From Leptolyngbya sp. PCC 6406 (lineage in GTDB: Bacteria > Cyanobacteriota > Cyanobacteriia > Phormidesmidales > Phormidesmidaceae): DNA of 64,000 nucleotides. The stretch spans positions 1,698,511 through 1,762,510 of the forward strand of contig NZ_KI913949.1 in the NCBI RefSeq assembly GCF_000332095.2. The letters are read 5' to 3'. Below the pieces are notes generated by a model. That model made no database searches, had not been told where the DNA came from, and was given only the letters and a program-made list of their open reading frames with translations. Of this stretch, positions 136-8,096 are shown one piece after another. Within the stretch, counting starts at the first letter, position 1. Each line of letters opens with the position of its first letter. Both the position numbers and the translations under genes were made by a program.

Positions 136-351
136 TCAGCCCTGACCCGTTACCTTAGCAATGGGTCCCTCGGTAGTGTCCTCCAGGTTGACAATGCCAT
201 CGGGGTTGACGGTGATGGCATTGTCTAGCCGTTCGTTGATTTCGGGATACTCGCTCAACACCTGCTCCACGACCGCATCCCCGTACTGGTTGAAGAAATT
301 GGGAATTTGGGAGGTATCAAACCCAGCGTTTAAAAAGGGAATATTTAAGTA
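136..351 (-). pseudogene. Unrecognised 3' gene fragment without a start codon
   Basis: An open minus-strand frame of about 70 codons ends with TGA at 138-136 and is closed upstream by an in-frame TAA at 354-352. It has no ATG or GTG near its beginning. The peptide looks like real protein (it contains NFFNQYGDAVVEQVL and ends PIAKVTGQG), so I read it as the C-terminal stump of a gene whose front is gone. It lies directly downstream of the HNH gene of the defence operon. I do not recognise the family. It could be a remnant of the gene displaced when the operon arrived. Bases 1-135 show nothing recognisable. Confidence 0.3.
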
Positions 352-1262
352 TTAGAATTTAGCATTGCCTCAAGCCACTCTCTCTTGACTTGATGTCCTT
401 GTTCCGTTTTGTAGACATAGAATCTTGCATATGCCAATGCCGCCGCAGAATACTCAGAGCCTTTGTCAATTAATCTAAGCAAATCTTTTTGGCGATTTTT
501 GTAGATTCTTCTAAACTGAGGATCTGTGATTTTAGAGAAGTAAGTATCGAGCTCTTCTACTAATCTCTTGACTTCTGAATCTTTATTCTTGCGATCTCGG
601 ACTAGTTCCTGAGAATGGAGATGGTAAACCTCAATAGATATTTCTGCTCTTTGATATTCTCTAGTTCCTGGATCTAGTGCAGGAACAGGTTCGCCATTAG
701 GTCGAAATGTTAGAAGCTTCCAGTCATTAGGATCGGTTGGATCGAGTAGATCGACATCCTCTAATTCCCAATCATCTGTTTCTTGGCGAGCTCTGAAACT
801 ACCGGATACGGGAAACCGGTCCGACTTTCCTCCTCTCGTACCACCAGGTGTATTTACTCGGCGCTGATTACTCCACTGACAAGAATAGCGATAGTTGCTC
901 CACTTGAAAGCCAACCACCAATAGCCTTCATGATCAGGATCTTCGTCCACACGATTTTTAGGACGGAAGTGATCAACATCTTTATCTGAGCCTGAGTTTA
1001 AACTTTCTGAGTACCAACACTTTCTATTACTGAGATTCGATAAGTGAGGAGCCAAATCCCTCCAAATCTTAGAACGTGATGACTTACTTAAGCCCTTAGT
1101 TATTGCATTTTTCCTTGCAGCTTTAACATCTTTCCCGTCAGCTATAGCCTGTTGTTCAGCTTGCTCAATTTCTCCTCGCAGCTCATTAAGCGCAGTCTCT
1201 GCTGTCGCTTCCCAGCCATCTGGAATTGCTATTGCTAACCTCTCAATATCAATCCAGCGCAT
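345..1262 (-). CDS. HNH endonuclease, PtuB-like (Septu-type effector)
   Basis: This 305-residue protein has an HNH core: KCWYSE at about 81-86, DVDHFRPK at 95-102, then GYWWLAFKW at 113-121 and SCQWSN at 127-132. That order (metal-binding Cys, D-H-F-R-P-K catalytic block, second Cys/Asn block) is typical of the PtuB/retron-associated HNH nucleases. The N-terminal 70 residues are charged and helical; the C-terminal half is helical with no obvious domain. In each CxxC-like pair the second Cys is Ser (C82/S85, C128/S131), so the structural zinc site may be lost or rebuilt. The ATG at 1262 shares one base with the TGA of the HsdS-ATPase gene (TGATG), which implies translational coupling and a shared complex. 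The likely role is DNA or RNA cleavage triggered by the partner ATPase; the target is inferred, not shown. Confidence 0.72.
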   Translation of the reverse strand: MRWIDIERLAIAIPDGWEATAETALNELRGEIEQAEQQAIADGKDVKAARKNAITKGLSKSSRSKIWRDLAPHLSNLSNRKCWYSESLNSGSDKDVDHFRPKNRVDEDPDHEGYWWLAFKWSNYRYSCQWSNQRRVNTPGGTRGGKSDRFPVSGSFRARQETDDWELEDVDLLDPTDPNDWKLLTFRPNGEPVPALDPGTREYQRAEISIEVYHLHSQELVRDRKNKDSEVKRLVEELDTYFSKITDPQFRRIYKNRQKDLLRLIDKGSEYSAAALAYARFYVYKTEQGHQVKREWLEAMLNSNT

Positions 1263-4200
1263 CAGTTAGTCGCCTCTGCTTGTAACTCAGCTAATACTTC
1301 CTCAAGAACTTCACGTGATATCCGATCAATTTCGTCTTGCTGCTCAGGATCAATGAAGCGAGCACCAGCCATCAAGTCCTTATACCTTTGCCCCCAAGCC
1401 CGAACGAAGGCAGCATAGTATGGATCACTAAACGCTTTCTCAAATCCGGCATCTTCTAATCTCTTGCTGATCTCTTCAAGTTCCTCAGCCTCTTCCGGAG
1501 TTAGTGAACCCTCTTGAGCAACCAAACGAACCTTGTTGTCTAAATCAGCTAGCGTTTCTTCATCCAAATCGCTCCGCATGCCAAACATCTCGCTGGTCAA
1601 GATGCCTGTAAAGCCTAGCCCACGAGGATTGACGGTGGGTTGCTCCCATATGCATGCGTCAGTTTGCCAATCGCGCTTCAAAAGATGGATTTGCTCTTTT
1701 AGGAGACTCGCAATCACAAGGGGATCATGAGTGGACATGAGGATTTGGCTCGTTTTTTGCTCCTCTGACTCATCGCCAGGAACTTCGCTCATGACGCTGG
1801 ACAGCAATTTCAAGTAATCCACGCTCCAATGGGGATTGAGATGGGTATCGGGTTCGTCCAAGAGAATTAGGGACTGATGTGATTTTGTGAATCGCATCAG
1901 TCCCAGAACCATAAGCAATTGTTGCTCGCCCTCACTTAGTTCATGAAATGTAATGGCTACTTGTTCTGTTTTGGTGGCTTGTACCTTAACCTGAATTTTT
2001 AAGTCGTAAATTAATTCAGAGAAATCTATGCTTTCTAGCGCCAAGAAAAACGTTCTAGCATCTTGATACTCTGCTGCAAAAGCGTGCAAGCTCTCAAGAT
2101 CAGGTAAAAAGAAGTAGTAATGCTCTTCGTTCTGAGAACTGTATCCCTCTTTTACGTTTTGAGTAACCAACATTGGAGCAATCGAAAACCGCCGAAGTCG
2201 TTCCATGACTCTTCGCATCACACCTCTAGCACCCCAAAAGTCGTCTGCTTTAGCTCCTGACTTTGCCTTTGCCCAGCGAGGTTTGCGAATCACAAACAGT
2301 GCTGACTCAAAACCAATAATTCGCAATCGTTTTTCGAGGAACTCGCTGATAGCAGGGTCTTCTTTATGGAAAAACGCTAACAATACATATTTGGCGTGAT
2401 GATTCTCAGCACAGAAGAATGTTCTCTCTTCTAGCAAATTAGAGAGTGTTTTTGGATCATCAGAGGTTGCATCTATCAGCCTGTTGTAATGCCTCTGATT
2501 CATAGGCAAGAAGTGCCCAGCCAGACGATTAGTTGGGCCTGAATAGTAGCCAAAAACAAACTTTGGAAGAGGTAGTTTACCTTTAGAAATCTTTTTGAAT
2601 TCCGTGGCTTCTTCTAGACCTTCCTGAAAGGTGCCAACCTTTAAGAGCGGACTTCGCATCTCTTGAGGATACCAGGTGATTTCCACTACCTGATTGCTGA
2701 TTTCATAGCGCAGATGAAAACCTTTGATTGAATTCTTATTCCAAGTTTTTCCGTTTGACCAATCATGTAAATCCCGAAAAATTACGACTAAAGATTCAAA
2801 TAGATTAGATTTACCCGTGCCATTCCAACCCAAAACGATATCTATACTATGTGAATCATCAAAACGGACTGTGTAGTCAACTAAATTTTTAAATTCTTCC
2901 AACCAAAGAGAGGCTAGACGAAATCTACCGTTCTCTGATGCTTCTTCTTCTGTCGGTTGAATTCCTAGTTGTTCTTCTTGTGATGGTAATGCTTGTCGCA
3001 CTTGCTCAAAGGCGCTGCGAACTTCAGGGGAAACTCGTAGCGCGTCATAGAACTCTGTAACTTCTTCTGGTCTAAAACCCGCTTGATCAAATAATTTGCG
3101 GGCATCCCTTTCTCCTGATTTTGAAAAAGTGGACGAAAGGGCTTCAAGATAATCTGCGGGAGTTTCCATAGAGACTTTATTTATCTTTTTGATTGGACGC
3201 CGAATCGTACGCCGTGCTTTATGCTCAACTTCTAGCTTAACTCTCTCGGCTTTAATTTCTTCAAGAAGGATTGAGGCTGGTTGATCTTGAGGATTTTGTG
3301 AAACCAAGTCACCCCTGAAAGCTTTTTTTAATACTGAAGGTACTAGCTTTTCAACTTTTTGAAGTAAGCCTTGATGTCGTTCTTCCAAGCAATCAGCGAT
3401 AGCAAAAAGAGTCTCGACTCTTCGAACAATTTCGTGTTGCTCTTCTACGGGAGGAATTGCCACTGGAAGAGCAGAAAGGCGAGACTTATTAATCGAGGCA
3501 AGATTTGTTGTTTGCTTACCCATAGACAGAAAGTAAGCAGCCCCTCGTGAATTCCCATACCAGGAAAAGAACTTTGGAGCAAATAATGAGTTGTATAAGC
3601 GAACTCGAAAAACATGATTTTGAAAAGTACATCTTTCGATCTCACCATTCCAGACCCATCCTCTTCCCAGTTTATCTATGTCACCACCTTCATTGAAAAG
3701 GACATCGCCTGGTTCAAGCAGGAGATCATCAACACGATTTGAGGGTACTCGTATAGTTTTTATCTCGCTTAGATCAAAGAAGCCACGTTGCACATTTGCA
3801 ACTCTCAAGTAGGGAAGTTGTTCATCATCCGAGTTCTGTTTTTTTGAATCTTTTGTAATTCCACCGACCACTTCAGATATTTCACCAAGCCTGGATATAC
3901 CCCAGCTTTTAGGAAATTTTAAGTCTTTGAAGCAGTCTGTATCTGATAAATCAAATGAAATAAATTCTTCAGCCTCATTACTCTGATTTGAGCCTGAATT
4001 TTGAACCCGCCAAGATTTAGTCAGCTCTCCTGAAGTTGCTTTTAATAAAACAGTTTCTCGGAAGCACCTAACAATGGTAGACACACGCTCAAGCCGATCG
4101 CGACACGCATCCACTCGCACAAACACACTATCAAGCTTGTCAGCAATTCGTTGTTGCTCATTGAATGGGGCCAATACAAAAGGCGCTTTTCTGCCCGCTT

Positions 4201-4639
4201 TCGTACTTAATCGCGGCATCGTTAGGCCATGACTTGATGCCTCTGCATATTCAAGAAATTGAGGATTCTTAAGCCAATAAAATAAAAATCGACCGTCAAT
4301 AGCTTCATTAGGTCTGAGAGGAATAATTTCTGTAGAACAATACCCATCCCGATCTGCTATATAAACCTTATTAAGGTAGGGACGGAGTTTCCCATAGAGT
4401 ATATCACCCTGAAAAAATAAATTTTTAGTGCTTTTTGATTGACGGTCTTCAAAACTTAATCGTTGCAAAAGTTTTGACGTATCTTTTTCAATATCTTCAA
4501 GTTCAAGCACCCAAGCATCAGATGGAATTTCATTTGGCTCAACTTTAGTTGTGGCTCCATAATCAACAATTTCACCAAGCGTACAGTTGAGCCAAGATGT
4601 AGGAATAGTTAGACTTTCTGTCAAGTTGGCACCTCCCAA
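1262..4639 (-). CDS. Fusion of type I specificity subunit HsdS with a PtuA/ABC-like ATPase
   Basis: The protein has 1125 residues, about twice a normal HsdS. Residues 1-470 form a full HsdS: target-recognition domain 1, a conserved helix (EQQRIADKLDSVFVRVDACR region, about 160-212), target-recognition domain 2, and a second conserved helix (EEQHEIVRRVETLF, about 400-470). A helical linker follows (about 470-590). From about 590 it is an SMC/ABC-type ATPase of the AAA_21/PtuA kind: Walker A GWNGTGKS with K610, signature LSEGEQQLL, Walker B LILLDEPDTHLNP with D928/E929. The DNA-binding half should dock on HsdM, and the ATPase half should act with the HNH protein encoded next. The start at 4639 overlaps vapC by 19 nt. 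An internal ATG at 3169 (M491) could give a separate ATPase but has no clear ribosome-binding site. The gene is AT-richer than its surroundings and lacks complete GCGATCGC sites, suggesting transfer. The frame is open throughout. Confidence 0.85.
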   Translation of the reverse strand: MGGANLTESLTIPTSWLNCTLGEIVDYGATTKVEPNEIPSDAWVLELEDIEKDTSKLLQRLSFEDRQSKSTKNLFFQGDILYGKLRPYLNKVYIADRDGYCSTEIIPLRPNEAIDGRFLFYWLKNPQFLEYAEASSHGLTMPRLSTKAGRKAPFVLAPFNEQQRIADKLDSVFVRVDACRDRLERVSTIVRCFRETVLLKATSGELTKSWRVQNSGSNQSNEAEEFISFDLSDTDCFKDLKFPKSWGISRLGEISEVVGGITKDSKKQNSDDEQLPYLRVANVQRGFFDLSEIKTIRVPSNRVDDLLLEPGDVLFNEGGDIDKLGRGWVWNGEIERCTFQNHVFRVRLYNSLFAPKFFSWYGNSRGAAYFLSMGKQTTNLASINKSRLSALPVAIPPVEEQHEIVRRVETLFAIADCLEERHQGLLQKVEKLVPSVLKKAFRGDLVSQNPQDQPASILLEEIKAERVKLEVEHKARRTIRRPIKKINKVSMETPADYLEALSSTFSKSGERDARKLFDQAGFRPEEVTEFYDALRVSPEVRSAFEQVRQALPSQEEQLGIQPTEEEASENGRFRLASLWLEEFKNLVDYTVRFDDSHSIDIVLGWNGTGKSNLFESLVVIFRDLHDWSNGKTWNKNSIKGFHLRYEISNQVVEITWYPQEMRSPLLKVGTFQEGLEEATEFKKISKGKLPLPKFVFGYYSGPTNRLAGHFLPMNQRHYNRLIDATSDDPKTLSNLLEERTFFCAENHHAKYVLLAFFHKEDPAISEFLEKRLRIIGFESALFVIRKPRWAKAKSGAKADDFWGARGVMRRVMERLRRFSIAPMLVTQNVKEGYSSQNEEHYYFFLPDLESLHAFAAEYQDARTFFLALESIDFSELIYDLKIQVKVQATKTEQVAITFHELSEGEQQLLMVLGLMRFTKSHQSLILLDEPDTHLNPHWSVDYLKLLSSVMSEVPGDESEEQKTSQILMSTHDPLVIASLLKEQIHLLKRDWQTDACIWEQPTVNPRGLGFTGILTSEMFGMRSDLDEETLADLDNKVRLVAQEGSLTPEEAEELEEISKRLEDAGFEKAFSDPYYAAFVRAWGQRYKDLMAGARFIDPEQQDEIDRISREVLEEVLAELQAEATN

Positions 4640-5028
4640 TCTTCAACCTTCAACCCATTGGCACGCTCAAATTCTCGCGTGTTGTGAGTCACTAAAGTCA
4701 GATTGTTTGCCACAGCGATCGCGGCAATCTGCAAATCATAAGACCCAATCGGAGTTCCTATACTGGCTAGCTTCGCCCTAATCTCACCTGCCAACAAAGC
4801 TGCCTCATCTTGAAACGGTAACGAGACAAAGCGGGATAGAAATGTTTGCTGTCGCTCCAGGGTCCGCTTTGGGTTAGTGCTCCGAAAAGCACCATAAAAC
4901 AGCTCAGCCTTCACGACTGAGCAAACCGCAATCTCCTCAGCAGGGGTGTCCAACAAGCGATCGCGCACTGATGACGAACGACCATTCAGATACACCACAC
5001 AGACATTTGTATCCAGCAAATAACGCAT
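4621..5028 (-). CDS. vapC: PIN-domain ribonuclease toxin, VapC family
   Basis: The 135-residue protein is a complete PIN domain: LLDTN at 4-8 (D6), VVKAELFYG with E42, GSYDLQIAA with D98 and VTHNTREF (T114/N116 region) give the acidic metal-binding residues of VapC RNases. VapC toxins cut tRNA or rRNA and stop translation when the antitoxin is lost. The gene starts 2 nt after the stop of the small gene 5031-5276, as usual for an antitoxin-toxin pair, and overlaps the HsdS-ATPase gene by 19 nt, so it is built into the restriction-like operon. Toxin identity is firm; which RNA it cuts cannot be read. Confidence 0.88.
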   Translation of the reverse strand: MRYLLDTNVCVVYLNGRSSSVRDRLLDTPAEEIAVCSVVKAELFYGAFRSTNPKRTLERQQTFLSRFVSLPFQDEAALLAGEIRAKLASIGTPIGSYDLQIAAIAVANNLTLVTHNTREFERANGLKVEDWEVPT

Positions 5029-5030
5029 AC

Positions 5031-5276
5031 TTACTCAAACGCTCCTGCTAGGTCTTCGTCTAGCGCATCCCCAATGCCCGACTCATCAATTCGGATCAGA
5101 TCATCCGCACAAATGCCATAGAGATCTTCTAAGGATAGCTCGGTAGAGATTTCGGATTGAACCGCCTGATAAATCACCATCACCTCGACATCTCGGTCAG
5201 CTAACCCGACCGAAATATCCAGATGCAGGATGCCATCTTGCCCGATTCGTTGGCGTACCTTAACGCTTTCCATCAT
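5031..5276 (-). CDS. Putative VapB-like antitoxin
   Basis: This protein of 81 residues starts at either of two tandem ATGs (5276 or 5273), chosen because GGAGGG (about 5285-5290) sits upstream. A longer reading from 5306 would run into the end of hsdM. The N-terminus (VKVRQRIGQDGILHLDISVG) resembles the small cyanobacterial proteins encoded before VapC toxins, and the acidic C-terminal part (many D/E) suits a segment that wraps around the toxin. It begins 13 nt after the hsdM stop. I infer its function from position; no classic AbrB or RHH motif is obvious. Confidence 0.6.
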   Translation of the reverse strand: MMESVKVRQRIGQDGILHLDISVGLADRDVEVMVIYQAVQSEISTELSLEDLYGICADDLIRIDESGIGDALDEDLAGAFE

Positions 5277-5289
5277 GGCCTTGTCCCTC

Positions 5290-6744
5290 CTAATCGACTT
5301 CCTCACCCAGTTCTTTCAAGATGCCCTGCAATTCAGCCAAAGCAGCCTCTAACTCAGTGATAGCCTCTTTAGCCAGGGTTGCAGGATCAGGTAACGATTC
5401 CTCTGTCTCATCGCGATCGCCATTTAGCCAGGTGATATCTAGGTTATCGCTGCGATCGGCAATCCATTCGCGGGAAAAACTACGAAATTTTCCACTTTCC
5501 CCTTCATCTTTCCGCTTCGCAAGACTGGCAGCACTCCCCAACGGATCGTCACCAAACGCTTTTTCAAACTCCTCAAAGTAATCACGGTTAAGCGAGGTTC
5601 GCTTGCCAAACTGGGGAGCATGGGCGCGTAAATCATAAACCCAGACCTTTTTCGTATTACCTGTTGCCTTTTTGCCACGGGTAAAGAACAACACATTGGT
5701 CTTTACCCCTTGAGCATAAAAAATACCCGACGGTAAACGTAAAATCGTGTGGAGGTTACATTTATCCATCAAGTCTTGACGGATCTGACGTCCCACATTA
5801 CTTTCAAACAGCACATTATCGGGAAAAATAGCGGCTGCTCGCCCCCCTACCTCCAATCCAAGATAGATATGCTGCAAAAAGCACAACTGTTTGTTACTCG
5901 TGGGAAAATCAAAATCTGGCCGCTCTGGTATGCCGCCCCCCTTCTTACTACCAAAAGGCGGATTCGTCAGAATCAGCGATGCCTTCGGCAAGGCTTGCCC
6001 TTCAGGGGATAGCGTATCCCCACAGCGCATTCCAGCCTGTTCAGGATTAGATTCAATACCGTGCAGCATCAAATTCATACAGCCCATCCGAAACGTATCC
6101 GGCACAAACTCCATGCCGTAAAACGTGTTGGTTTTATGCTTCTTTTTTTGGGCTGATGTCCAACTTGCAGGCTTTTCATGTTTCTGGATGTAGCGATTTG
6201 CTGAAATCAGAAATCCCCCCGTTCCAGCCGCCGGATCTTGAATCACATCCTTCAAAGTTGGGCGCATCACATGCACCATGCTATCGATTAACGCCCTTGG
6301 CGTAAAATACTGCCCTGCCCCTGCCTTAGACTCGTTGGCGTTTTTCTCTAGCAGACCCTCATAGATATCTCCCATCCCTTCTTGCTTGGCGTTGTACCAA
6401 TCAAGTTTGTCGATCTCAGTGACAAGGGTATTCAGGGTGTTTGCCTTTTTGATTTCAGTACTAGCGTCGGCAAAAATTTCTTTGACAATTACAGATCCTT
6501 CGCTGCTCAGATGCTCTAGCAGTTCTCTGTAAAACTCAATCTGCTCGGCTCCTTCATGCGCTTCCAGATCATCCCACCGATATCCTTCGGGAAGCTGGTG
6601 ATCAATCTCTGTCTCCTTCGCCATCTTCAAGAATAGAAGATATGTCAGCTCGGTGACGTACTGATGATAAACGATCGCCCCATCCTTAAGGATGTTGCAG
6701 AGATTCCAGAGTTTAGCAACGATGTCGTGAGTTGAATTGCCCAT
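5290..6744 (-). CDS. hsdM: Type I DNA methyltransferase subunit HsdM (N6-adenine)
   Basis: The 484-residue protein has the HsdM helical N-terminal domain (about 5-135), then GAGQYFTPR at 142-150, the AdoMet motif I DPAAGTGG at 170-177 and the catalytic NPPF motif IV at 261-264. It methylates adenine in a two-part target chosen by the specificity subunit. It is the first gene of a tightly packed minus-strand operon: hsdM, antitoxin, vapC, hsdS-ATPase, HNH. No hsdR lies in the window, so its nuclease partner here may be the ATPase/HNH pair instead of a DEAD-box R subunit. It carries some GCGATCGC-like sites, unlike the two downstream genes, so the operon may be a composite. The last 25 residues are a Leu/Glu-rich coiled tail. 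Confidence 0.95.
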   Translation of the reverse strand: MGNSTHDIVAKLWNLCNILKDGAIVYHQYVTELTYLLFLKMAKETEIDHQLPEGYRWDDLEAHEGAEQIEFYRELLEHLSSEGSVIVKEIFADASTEIKKANTLNTLVTEIDKLDWYNAKQEGMGDIYEGLLEKNANESKAGAGQYFTPRALIDSMVHVMRPTLKDVIQDPAAGTGGFLISANRYIQKHEKPASWTSAQKKKHKTNTFYGMEFVPDTFRMGCMNLMLHGIESNPEQAGMRCGDTLSPEGQALPKASLILTNPPFGSKKGGGIPERPDFDFPTSNKQLCFLQHIYLGLEVGGRAAAIFPDNVLFESNVGRQIRQDLMDKCNLHTILRLPSGIFYAQGVKTNVLFFTRGKKATGNTKKVWVYDLRAHAPQFGKRTSLNRDYFEEFEKAFGDDPLGSAASLAKRKDEGESGKFRSFSREWIADRSDNLDITWLNGDRDETEESLPDPATLAKEAITELEAALAELQGILKELGEEVD

Positions 6745-7184: not shown

Positions 7185-8096
7185 CTACCACTCTGCCATG
7201 CCGCTTGATGAATAAAGTCGAGCTAAGGGATCAGCACAGTAGTCCGCCAGGTGAGGACTGCGATAACCGTCACGCTGCCACAGGATGGGAAAAAAGCTTT
7301 CATCCATGTGGCAATCGTTCACCCGCTTGTAGCGGCCATAGATATAGCCCGGTGGGTTAACAGCATGGAAGTGGGCCTGGGCCGGAATGGTATGCAGACC
7401 AATGCTATGGAAGGTGCCCTCGGTGCGGGTGGTGGGGCCGAGGCCATGCCAGGTGCGGCCATGGTGAAAGGCACAGCCCCCAGCAGGCACTTCTACCACC
7501 ACTAGCTCGGGCTCGGGGACACCCGCATTTTCGGCGGCGGCCAACATGGCCCAACGGTAGTCCTTCTGGGGAGCATGGAACTCGCCCTCAACAGTCACCA
7601 AGGGCCATTTGTGGGATCCCTTGGCGTAGACGAGAGTACCGTCGGCGGTAGAGGCATCATTGAGGGCCACCCAGCAGGTCATCATCTCTGGCATGGAGAG
7701 AAAATCAACATAGGCCCCGTCTTGGTGCATGGCGATCGCCTTGGCCTGGGGGGGCTTCATCCAGAGGCTGTCTTGGCCAATACGGGCTCCGTCCCACCCC
7801 GCCAAGGTGGCGCTGAGGCGACCGATTTCTGAGGACAGTACAAGGCTGGCGATGGTGCGATCGCTCTTCCAGCCATTGCAAATTTCCCGCGTAATGTCCG
7901 GCAGACTCATATTGGGCCGCCAATGCCATTCATCGGGATAGATGCCCGTCTCGAATTCGCCATGGAACATGGGTTCCATACGGGCGATCAACTGCTGGAC
8001 AAAATCAGACGACAGGAAATTCTCGACAATCAGAAAGCCATCGGCTTGGAACTGTTGAAGCTGGTCCTGGGAAAGCTGAAGCGGTTGGTATGCCAT
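7185..8096 (-). CDS. Phytanoyl-CoA dioxygenase (PhyH) family Fe(II)/2-oxoglutarate oxygenase
   Basis: The product is 303 residues from the ATG at 8096. The frame also stays open to an ATG at 8174, but those extra codons would run through the inverted repeat at 8167-8180. The iron ligands are visible: AMHQDGAY (HxD, H124/D126 counted from 8096) and a distal His in CAFHHGRTWHGLGP; an Arg beyond it (TRTEGTFHS) fits 2-oxoglutarate binding. The family hydroxylates small molecules such as phytanoyl-CoA, ectoine or secondary-metabolite precursors; the substrate here is unknown. It is divergent from a solute-binding protein and a glutamine synthetase-like ligase that share a palindromic motif, so it may belong to one pathway for an amine or amino-acid-like compound. 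Confidence 0.82.
   Translation of the reverse strand: MAYQPLQLSQDQLQQFQADGFLIVENFLSSDFVQQLIARMEPMFHGEFETGIYPDEWHWRPNMSLPDITREICNGWKSDRTIASLVLSSEIGRLSATLAGWDGARIGQDSLWMKPPQAKAIAMHQDGAYVDFLSMPEMMTCWVALNDASTADGTLVYAKGSHKWPLVTVEGEFHAPQKDYRWAMLAAAENAGVPEPELVVVEVPAGGCAFHHGRTWHGLGPTTRTEGTFHSIGLHTIPAQAHFHAVNPPGYIYGRYKRVNDCHMDESFFPILWQRDGYRSPHLADYCADPLARLYSSSGMAEW

Follow-up and report, generated by a model that had tools for sequence, protein, structure and literature searches.

A candidate immune system in Leptolyngbya sp. PCC 6406 that couples a type I methyltransferase to a Septu-type ATPase and HNH nuclease

A locus in Leptolyngbya sp. PCC 6406 raises the question of whether a type I DNA methyltransferase with no hsdR gene beside it can serve as the sensor for a nuclease pair of the Septu type. 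The locus occupies positions 345-6744 of a 64,000-nucleotide stretch of contig NZ_KI913949.1 (positions 1,698,511 to 1,762,510), referred to as the window. An initial annotation, made from the sequence alone, had placed there a standard HsdM, a single frame joining HsdS to a PtuA-like ATPase, and an HNH protein, and had proposed that the Septu pair replaces HsdR. This order of genes was confirmed by open reading frame (ORF) calls and by PADLOC and Pfam searches. Our analysis favours, at somewhat better than even chances, a four-component immune system in which the type I methyltransferase would be the sensor and the Septu pair the effector, licensed by unmethylated sites. The three genes named at the outset were all present, but a vapBC-like pair between hsdM and the fusion gene had been missed. 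The operon consists of five tightly packed genes, all on the minus strand, with the following features.

5290-6744, minus strand: hsdM, a type I N6-adenine methyltransferase of 484 amino acids (PADLOC MTase_I 4e-203; EcoKI M in the PDB, 4e-150)
5031-5306, minus strand: ORF of 91 amino acids, a presumed VapB-like antitoxin (from the ORF call and position only)
4621-5028, minus strand: vapC, a PIN-domain toxin above the cut-off of the tRNA(fMet)-specific VapC family (NCBIfam NF047863, 147.3 bits, cut-off 140; Pfam PIN 2.5e-18)
1262-4639, minus strand: HsdS::PtuA fusion, 1125 amino acids, TTG start, without an internal stop
3239-4639, minus strand: HsdS core of the fusion (residues 1-467), two target recognition domains (TRDs) and coiled-coil conserved regions (Pfam Methylase_S, two stretches; EcoKI S in the PDB, 1e-36)
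3380-3913, minus strand: second TRD (residues 243-420, a Pfam stretch)
2948-3235, minus strand: C-terminal extension of HsdS (residues 469-564), found with our own hidden Markov model (HMM) and predicted to be helical and helix-turn-helix-like
1262-2929, minus strand: PtuA-type ABC/SMC-like ATPase (residues ~571-1125; PADLOC PtuA1 2.5e-161; PtuA and retron ATPases in the PDB)
345-1262, minus strand: PtuB-type HNH nuclease, 305 amino acids (PADLOC PtuB1 2e-79)

The methyltransferase components resembled those of EcoKI. HsdM was 48.6% identical to HsdM of E. coli K-12 and carried intact DPAAGTGGF (residue 170) and NPPF (residue 261) motifs, which together with the MTase_I and EcoKI M matches bore out its description as a standard HsdM. 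The N-terminal part of the fusion protein was an HsdS with two TRDs, as seen from the two Methylase_S stretches and from fold matches in Foldseek, and the PADLOC Specificity_I model (1e-115) spanned residues 11-535. The two-TRD domain was as originally read, but its end had been set at residue 470; the HsdS core ends at residue 467, and an extension of approximately 95 residues continues from there before PtuA begins.

PADLOC PtuA1 covered residues 574-1119 of the fusion protein, and the Walker A motif (604-611, with K610), the LSEGEQQ signature (901-907) and the Walker B motif (924-936, with D928/E929) placed the catalytic residues where the initial annotation had seen them. The gene for the HNH protein overlaps the fusion gene by one base, also as described, and its product was identified as a PtuB. 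It contained the motif DVDH98, with H98 and N132 conserved in an alignment, and a structural model with a predicted local distance difference test score (pLDDT) of 82 gave PtuB proteins of Septu and retrons as its 11 best Foldseek matches. In the HNH proteins as a group, the second Cys of two CxxC-like pairs (CWYCE and CxxCN) was often lost, and in the window protein both were lost, a pattern that suggests loss of a putative zinc site in some PtuB members.

A sequencing or assembly artefact could have joined two genes into a frame that unites HsdS and an ATPase, but nothing was found in favour of this explanation, and we consider it negligible. A genome from another family (G298) contained a full-length homologue of the fusion, preceded by hsdM and followed by the HNH gene; its open frame has 1123 amino acids and is 65% identical across residues 9-1125. 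This second intact frame ruled out an assembly or frameshift artefact, and the single continuous frame of 1125 residues for HsdS and an SMC/ABC ATPase stands as first reported. The assembly was 99.96% complete in 3 contigs, and the gene order was the same in relatives in which the two proteins are unfused. In one of these, G304, the ATG of ptuA comes in frame immediately after the TAA stop of hsdS, so losing that one stop codon could give such a fusion. An AlphaFold model of the fusion protein had a mean pLDDT of 78.3 and a predicted template modelling score (pTM) of 0.52, with low confidence in the linker at residues 476-568, and was too uncertain between domains to show how HsdS and PtuA are arranged. 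When this model was used in Foldseek, HsdS structures came first, followed by retron and Septu PtuA. A scan of genome contigs with the whole fusion as the query gave HsdS matches only.

Is the coupling peculiar to this genome? Searching for proteins that span HsdS and PtuA, and listing their neighbours, showed that it is not: the fusion recurs in G298, and unfused sets were found in several phyla. For members of the family, genomes of three phyla and viral contigs were searched with an alignment of the ATPase part as the query. Within the same phylum it was present in 4 of 373 genomes, with HsdS directly upstream in all four. Among 400 Chloroflexota genomes there were three strong members, two of them directly behind HsdS. 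Six viral contigs had members, each in the order HsdS-ATPase-HNH, and phage records gave two weak, unannotated matches. In E. coli a member was found in 10 of 5,426 genomes, and the five whose context was inspected all had a four-gene set without hsdR. Annotated plasmids of Pseudoalteromonas donghaensis, Vibrio vulnificus, Pantoea eucalypti and Roseomonas carried hsdM, hsdS, the ATPase and the HNH gene but no hsdR, and a plasmid of Pseudoalteromonas KG3 carried the same set plus hsdR. No member was found among 397 Actinomycetota genomes, a result that shows little since it had no positive control. The order HsdS-PtuA-PtuB was kept in all HsdS-linked loci. The fusion belongs to a wider system, the usual form of which was the unfused hsdM-hsdS-ptuA-ptuB.

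The next question is where HsdR has gone. No hsdR was found in the 14.5 kb to the left of the window, which contained unrelated genes, or between hsdM and the unrelated gene that follows it on the right at 7185, in agreement with the absence first noted. Six other type I HsdM genes are present in the genome, and an HsdR lies no more than about 10 kb from each. An HsdR can serve in trans for another enzyme of its class. With several HsdR genes in the genome, the operon could encode the HsdM and HsdS of an ordinary type I enzyme served by an HsdR from elsewhere, with PtuAB as a separate Septu that was fused or placed there. Because the Pfam model PF04313 may miss HsdR proteins of the EcoKI type, the genome was searched with the type IA-like HsdR protein of G304. 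No complete type IA-like HsdR was found; there was a 163-residue C-terminal remnant and two partial matches to the HsdR proteins of other systems, and G298 gave nothing. A cognate HsdR acting in trans seems unlikely, because this remnant was the only type IA-like HsdR sequence found in the genome and the six other HsdM proteins are at most 36% identical to that of the operon, and we regard an ordinary enzyme beside a separate Septu as quite improbable. The remnant itself (C1:2442554-2443036; L090:6543-6977, minus strand) is 53% identical to the HsdR of G304 with one internal stop and lies about 740 kb from the operon, without hsdM or hsdS beside it; it is perhaps the trace of a lost system.

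Across the family, 18 distinct loci could be assessed for an adjacent hsdR, after two (L072 and G164) had been left out as too near a contig edge. The gene was absent from 11 of them and present in 7. Presence and absence were scattered on the PtuA tree, with at least four changes forced by well-supported branches, and near pairs differed in hsdR, namely E. coli MB06233 and the viral contig L069, and likewise L073 and L074. HsdR is therefore optional, whereas HsdS and PtuAB remain linked, the one exception being G687 (see below). The proposal that the Septu pair replaces HsdR was sustained in one respect, since a core of methyltransferase and specificity subunit is coupled to PtuAB without a local HsdR. 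Replacement is nevertheless too simple a word, because the loci that keep an adjacent hsdR are scattered on the tree, and from gene content PtuAB appears to be an effector module that joins type I methyltransferases whether or not they have an HsdR.

What could connect PtuA to HsdS in the unfused members? A profile of the C-terminal extension matched the HsdS proteins encoded beside PtuA, and about 33 HsdS proteins without this PtuA gave no match. In a leave-one-out analysis 18 of 19 members were recovered, and the held-out member of G164 was matched at 1.7e-8. The extension was helical, with low confidence, in the model of the fusion protein. Its identity between loci followed that of the PtuA core when HsdM was held constant (partial Mantel r 0.87, p 2e-4), and the C-terminal tail of PtuA followed PtuB when the PtuA core was held constant (partial Mantel r 0.68). 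The extension is thus proposed as a putative adaptor to PtuA. In one genome (G515, L080:3397-5757), HsdS is 786 amino acids long and has a phosphorylase-superfamily (PNP_UDP_1) domain inserted before the C-terminal extension.

Pairwise identity profiles and module comparisons gave three units of exchange: the TRDs, an effector unit of the PtuA tail with PtuB, and an adaptor unit of the HsdS extension with the PtuA core. Between the window and G298, TRD2 was 79% identical while TRD1 was unrelated (16%), and between E. coli OW1E2 and KFu019 the reverse was seen, with 92% for TRD1 and 17% for TRD2. This swapping of TRDs between loci indicates that it is the DNA specificity which varies. For the effector unit, OW1E2 and NCTC11121 shared 79% in the PtuA core, 38% in the tail and 27% in PtuB, compared to 91%, 82% and 94% between KFu019 and NCTC11121. 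The clearest case of exchange was that of the adaptor unit, where MB06233 and OW1E2 had 88% identity in HsdM but 14% in the extension and 46% in the PtuA core. MB06233 and the viral contig L069 were 42% identical in HsdM and 57, 79 and 75% in the extension, PtuA core and PtuB, respectively.

How might such a complex work? We propose that HsdM2S uses both TRDs of HsdS to scan DNA. At sites that are methylated or hemimethylated, as in the host, it would methylate and then leave, and at fully unmethylated sites, as in foreign DNA, it would remain engaged. The C-terminal extension of HsdS would hold the PtuA ATPase, covalently in the window and as the product of a separate ptuA gene in the relatives. 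The engaged complex would alter the ATP-dependent assembly state of PtuA, and the altered PtuA would unleash the HNH nuclease PtuB, which would be docked on the C-terminal tail of PtuA. HsdR would be dispensable, serving as an additional weapon in some relatives. Type I complexes tell unmethylated from hemimethylated sites (PMC12707154), and the role of HsdM2S as the sensor is proposed because these complexes sense the methylation state, because TRD exchange resembles that of restriction systems and because HsdR is dispensable. A trigger by unmethylated sites is plausible, and we infer both an anti-phage activity of the system and a physical docking of PtuA in the unfused members. By analogy with known PtuAB pairs the substrate of PtuB could be either DNA or tRNA. 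The PtuAB of retron-Eco7 and of Septu EcB88 cleave tRNA-Tyr (PMC11555353, PMC13096335), and the Septu of ATCC 25922 has been reported to act on DNA, as cited in PMC11555353. A broader formulation, to which we give somewhat less than even chances, is that these loci form a separate class of restriction system, with a dedicated adaptor domain of HsdS relaying recognition from a type I methyltransferase to an exchangeable PtuAB instead of HsdR. The TRDs, the core and the effector would then be exchanged independently, and PtuAB would be a general effector for retron reverse transcriptase and noncoding RNA, for HsdMS, and perhaps for FHA-kinase sensors.

Several points weigh against a coupled system triggered by unmethylated DNA. 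The evidence for it is computational throughout, from the gene content, the intact motifs and the fold identity of PtuB to the recurrence of the coupling, the TRD exchange and the co-variation of the modules. Known Septu and retron PtuAB respond to other triggers. The extension profile was trained on its own positives and failed for 1 of 19 in the leave-one-out analysis. The units of exchange are also neighbours on the DNA (the extension and PtuA, and the PtuA tail and PtuB), and linkage may therefore account for part of their co-variation. In G687, a close relative from Chloroflexota (L079:5130-11095), PtuAB was found without HsdMS behind TPR-kinase and FHA-kinase genes and may be coupled to another sensor. 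Finally, the retention of hsdR in 7 of the 18 loci also fits with an add-on that guards a restriction enzyme.

This last reading is the main rival, although we consider it unlikely. HsdMS would hold PtuAB inactive until an anti-restriction protein of the Ocr, ArdA or Stp type binds or distorts the complex; PtuAB would then be released and the cell stopped, perhaps by tRNA cutting, and unmethylated DNA would not be the trigger. The precedent is PrrC, an ABC-ATPase tRNase inside a type I restriction-modification (RM) locus that fires when RM is inhibited (reviewed in PMC12707154; PMC11555353), and the cleavage of tRNA-Tyr by other PtuAB pairs points the same way. In the 11 loci without hsdR, however, there is no restriction activity and hence nothing to guard, and the frequent exchange of TRDs would be expected if the DNA specificity itself matters. 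A chance neighbourhood, in which a stand-alone Septu lies beside an orphan methyltransferase and the fusion is an accident without function, is very unlikely. Defence genes do cluster in islands, the PADLOC models label the pair as plain Septu, and the pair in G687 does without HsdMS, but the fusion is conserved at 65% in G298, the gene order holds wherever PtuA is linked to HsdS, and the extension of HsdS varies together with PtuA. The coupled system sensing unmethylated sites remains the reading that we prefer.

The vapBC-like pair was regarded as an optional passenger of the operon, since it is broken in G298 and absent from that position in the unfused relatives; a core role for it was ruled out. 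In G298 (L055:6260-6647), frame-broken remnants of vapB and vapC lie between hsdM and the fusion, in the same place as the intact pair of the window. The 91-residue ORF had no family match in Pfam, PADLOC and NCBIfam searches. It overlaps hsdM by 17 bases, and each gene of the pair overlaps its neighbours or sits 2 bases away. In G304 a PIN-domain, VapC-like gene (L056:11660-12058) is embedded in the unfused set, with hsdR on one side and hsdM on the other. The G+C content of the operon (0.40-0.50) is below that of the whole window (0.558), which suggests horizontal acquisition. Promoter and terminator scans gave fewer matches than in shuffled sequence. In a metagenome-assembled genome of Chloroflexi (L012:4203-12203), a type I RM locus is directly followed by Cas9-like and Cas1/Cas2-like genes.

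The locus seems to represent a genuine type of immune system that awaits description. A search of the open-access literature gave no paper in which HsdM and PtuA are treated together as one system, as the initial annotation had supposed, and a prior description is possible since most subscription journals and preprints lay outside the search. What triggers PtuAB in Septu is unsettled in the open literature, and the reports disagree on whether its substrate is DNA or tRNA. That PtuA is naturally fused to a complex able to sense methylation points towards a specific trigger, the state of modification of a known DNA sequence, and the intact unfused copies in E. coli make this idea directly testable. 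If true, a methyltransferase would distinguish self from non-self on behalf of an effector that is not HsdR, which is further evidence that effectors of defence can be exchanged as modules. Annotation model by model would log such loci as plain Septu plus an orphan methyltransferase and hide the system.

By its features the operon is, as read from the sequence, neither a complete type I RM system, a canonical Septu, a type I-A retron, a MADS nor a TIGR04435 system. Both effector proteins match the PtuA1 and PtuB1 models of type I Septu nearly over their full length, the PtuB fold is that of solved Septu and retron PtuB, and the Walker and HNH residues are present. Canonical Septu is a stand-alone pair without a methyltransferase, whereas PtuA is here fused to HsdS (or adjoins it in relatives) in a five-gene operon with HsdM. 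EcoKI-like (type IA) RM is approached in HsdM and in an HsdS with two TRDs and conserved regions, but HsdR is missing and HsdS has gained the extension and a PtuA domain. The MADS systems also combine a methyltransferase, a specificity subunit and an AAA ATPase, but the MAD2, MAD3 and MAD5 models matched weakly, with 87.1, 21.5 and 38.7 bits against cut-offs of 720, 420 and 400, respectively. Another comparison is with the NCBIfam family TIGR04435 (restriction system-associated AAA family ATPase), whose name shows that a related association had already been noticed. It forms a sister branch in which an ATPase gene beside hsdM and hsdS precedes an HNH-like gene. The operon ATPase scored 120.9 bits against its cut-off of 300, and the TIGR04435 clade is separate, its HsdS lacking the extension by our profile. 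Loci of this sister group (L061:7359-13219, L077:4768-10568 and L049:1003-11811) occur with or without hsdR, and their third gene matches the PADLOC candidates PDC-M01B/M62B.

Second defence modules embedded in another system are known from DarTG2 in the type I RM locus of enteropathogenic E. coli and from Septu in Hma loci (PMC12255303). Those modules are unfused, and the DarTG2 case keeps HsdR. EcoprrI-PrrC likewise embeds an ATPase-nuclease in a type I locus, but there the ATPase and an anticodon nuclease domain make up a single protein, PrrC, and HsdR is kept, whereas the operon ATPase had no such domain in Pfam and NCBIfam searches, the HNH nuclease is a separate protein, and HsdR is often missing. 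In the type I-A retron, or type II Septu (reverse transcriptase with PtuAB), the same effector pair stands under a different sensor. No reverse transcriptase gene was found among the operon ORFs by Pfam, PADLOC and NCBIfam searches, and the proposed sensor of the operon is a methyltransferase.

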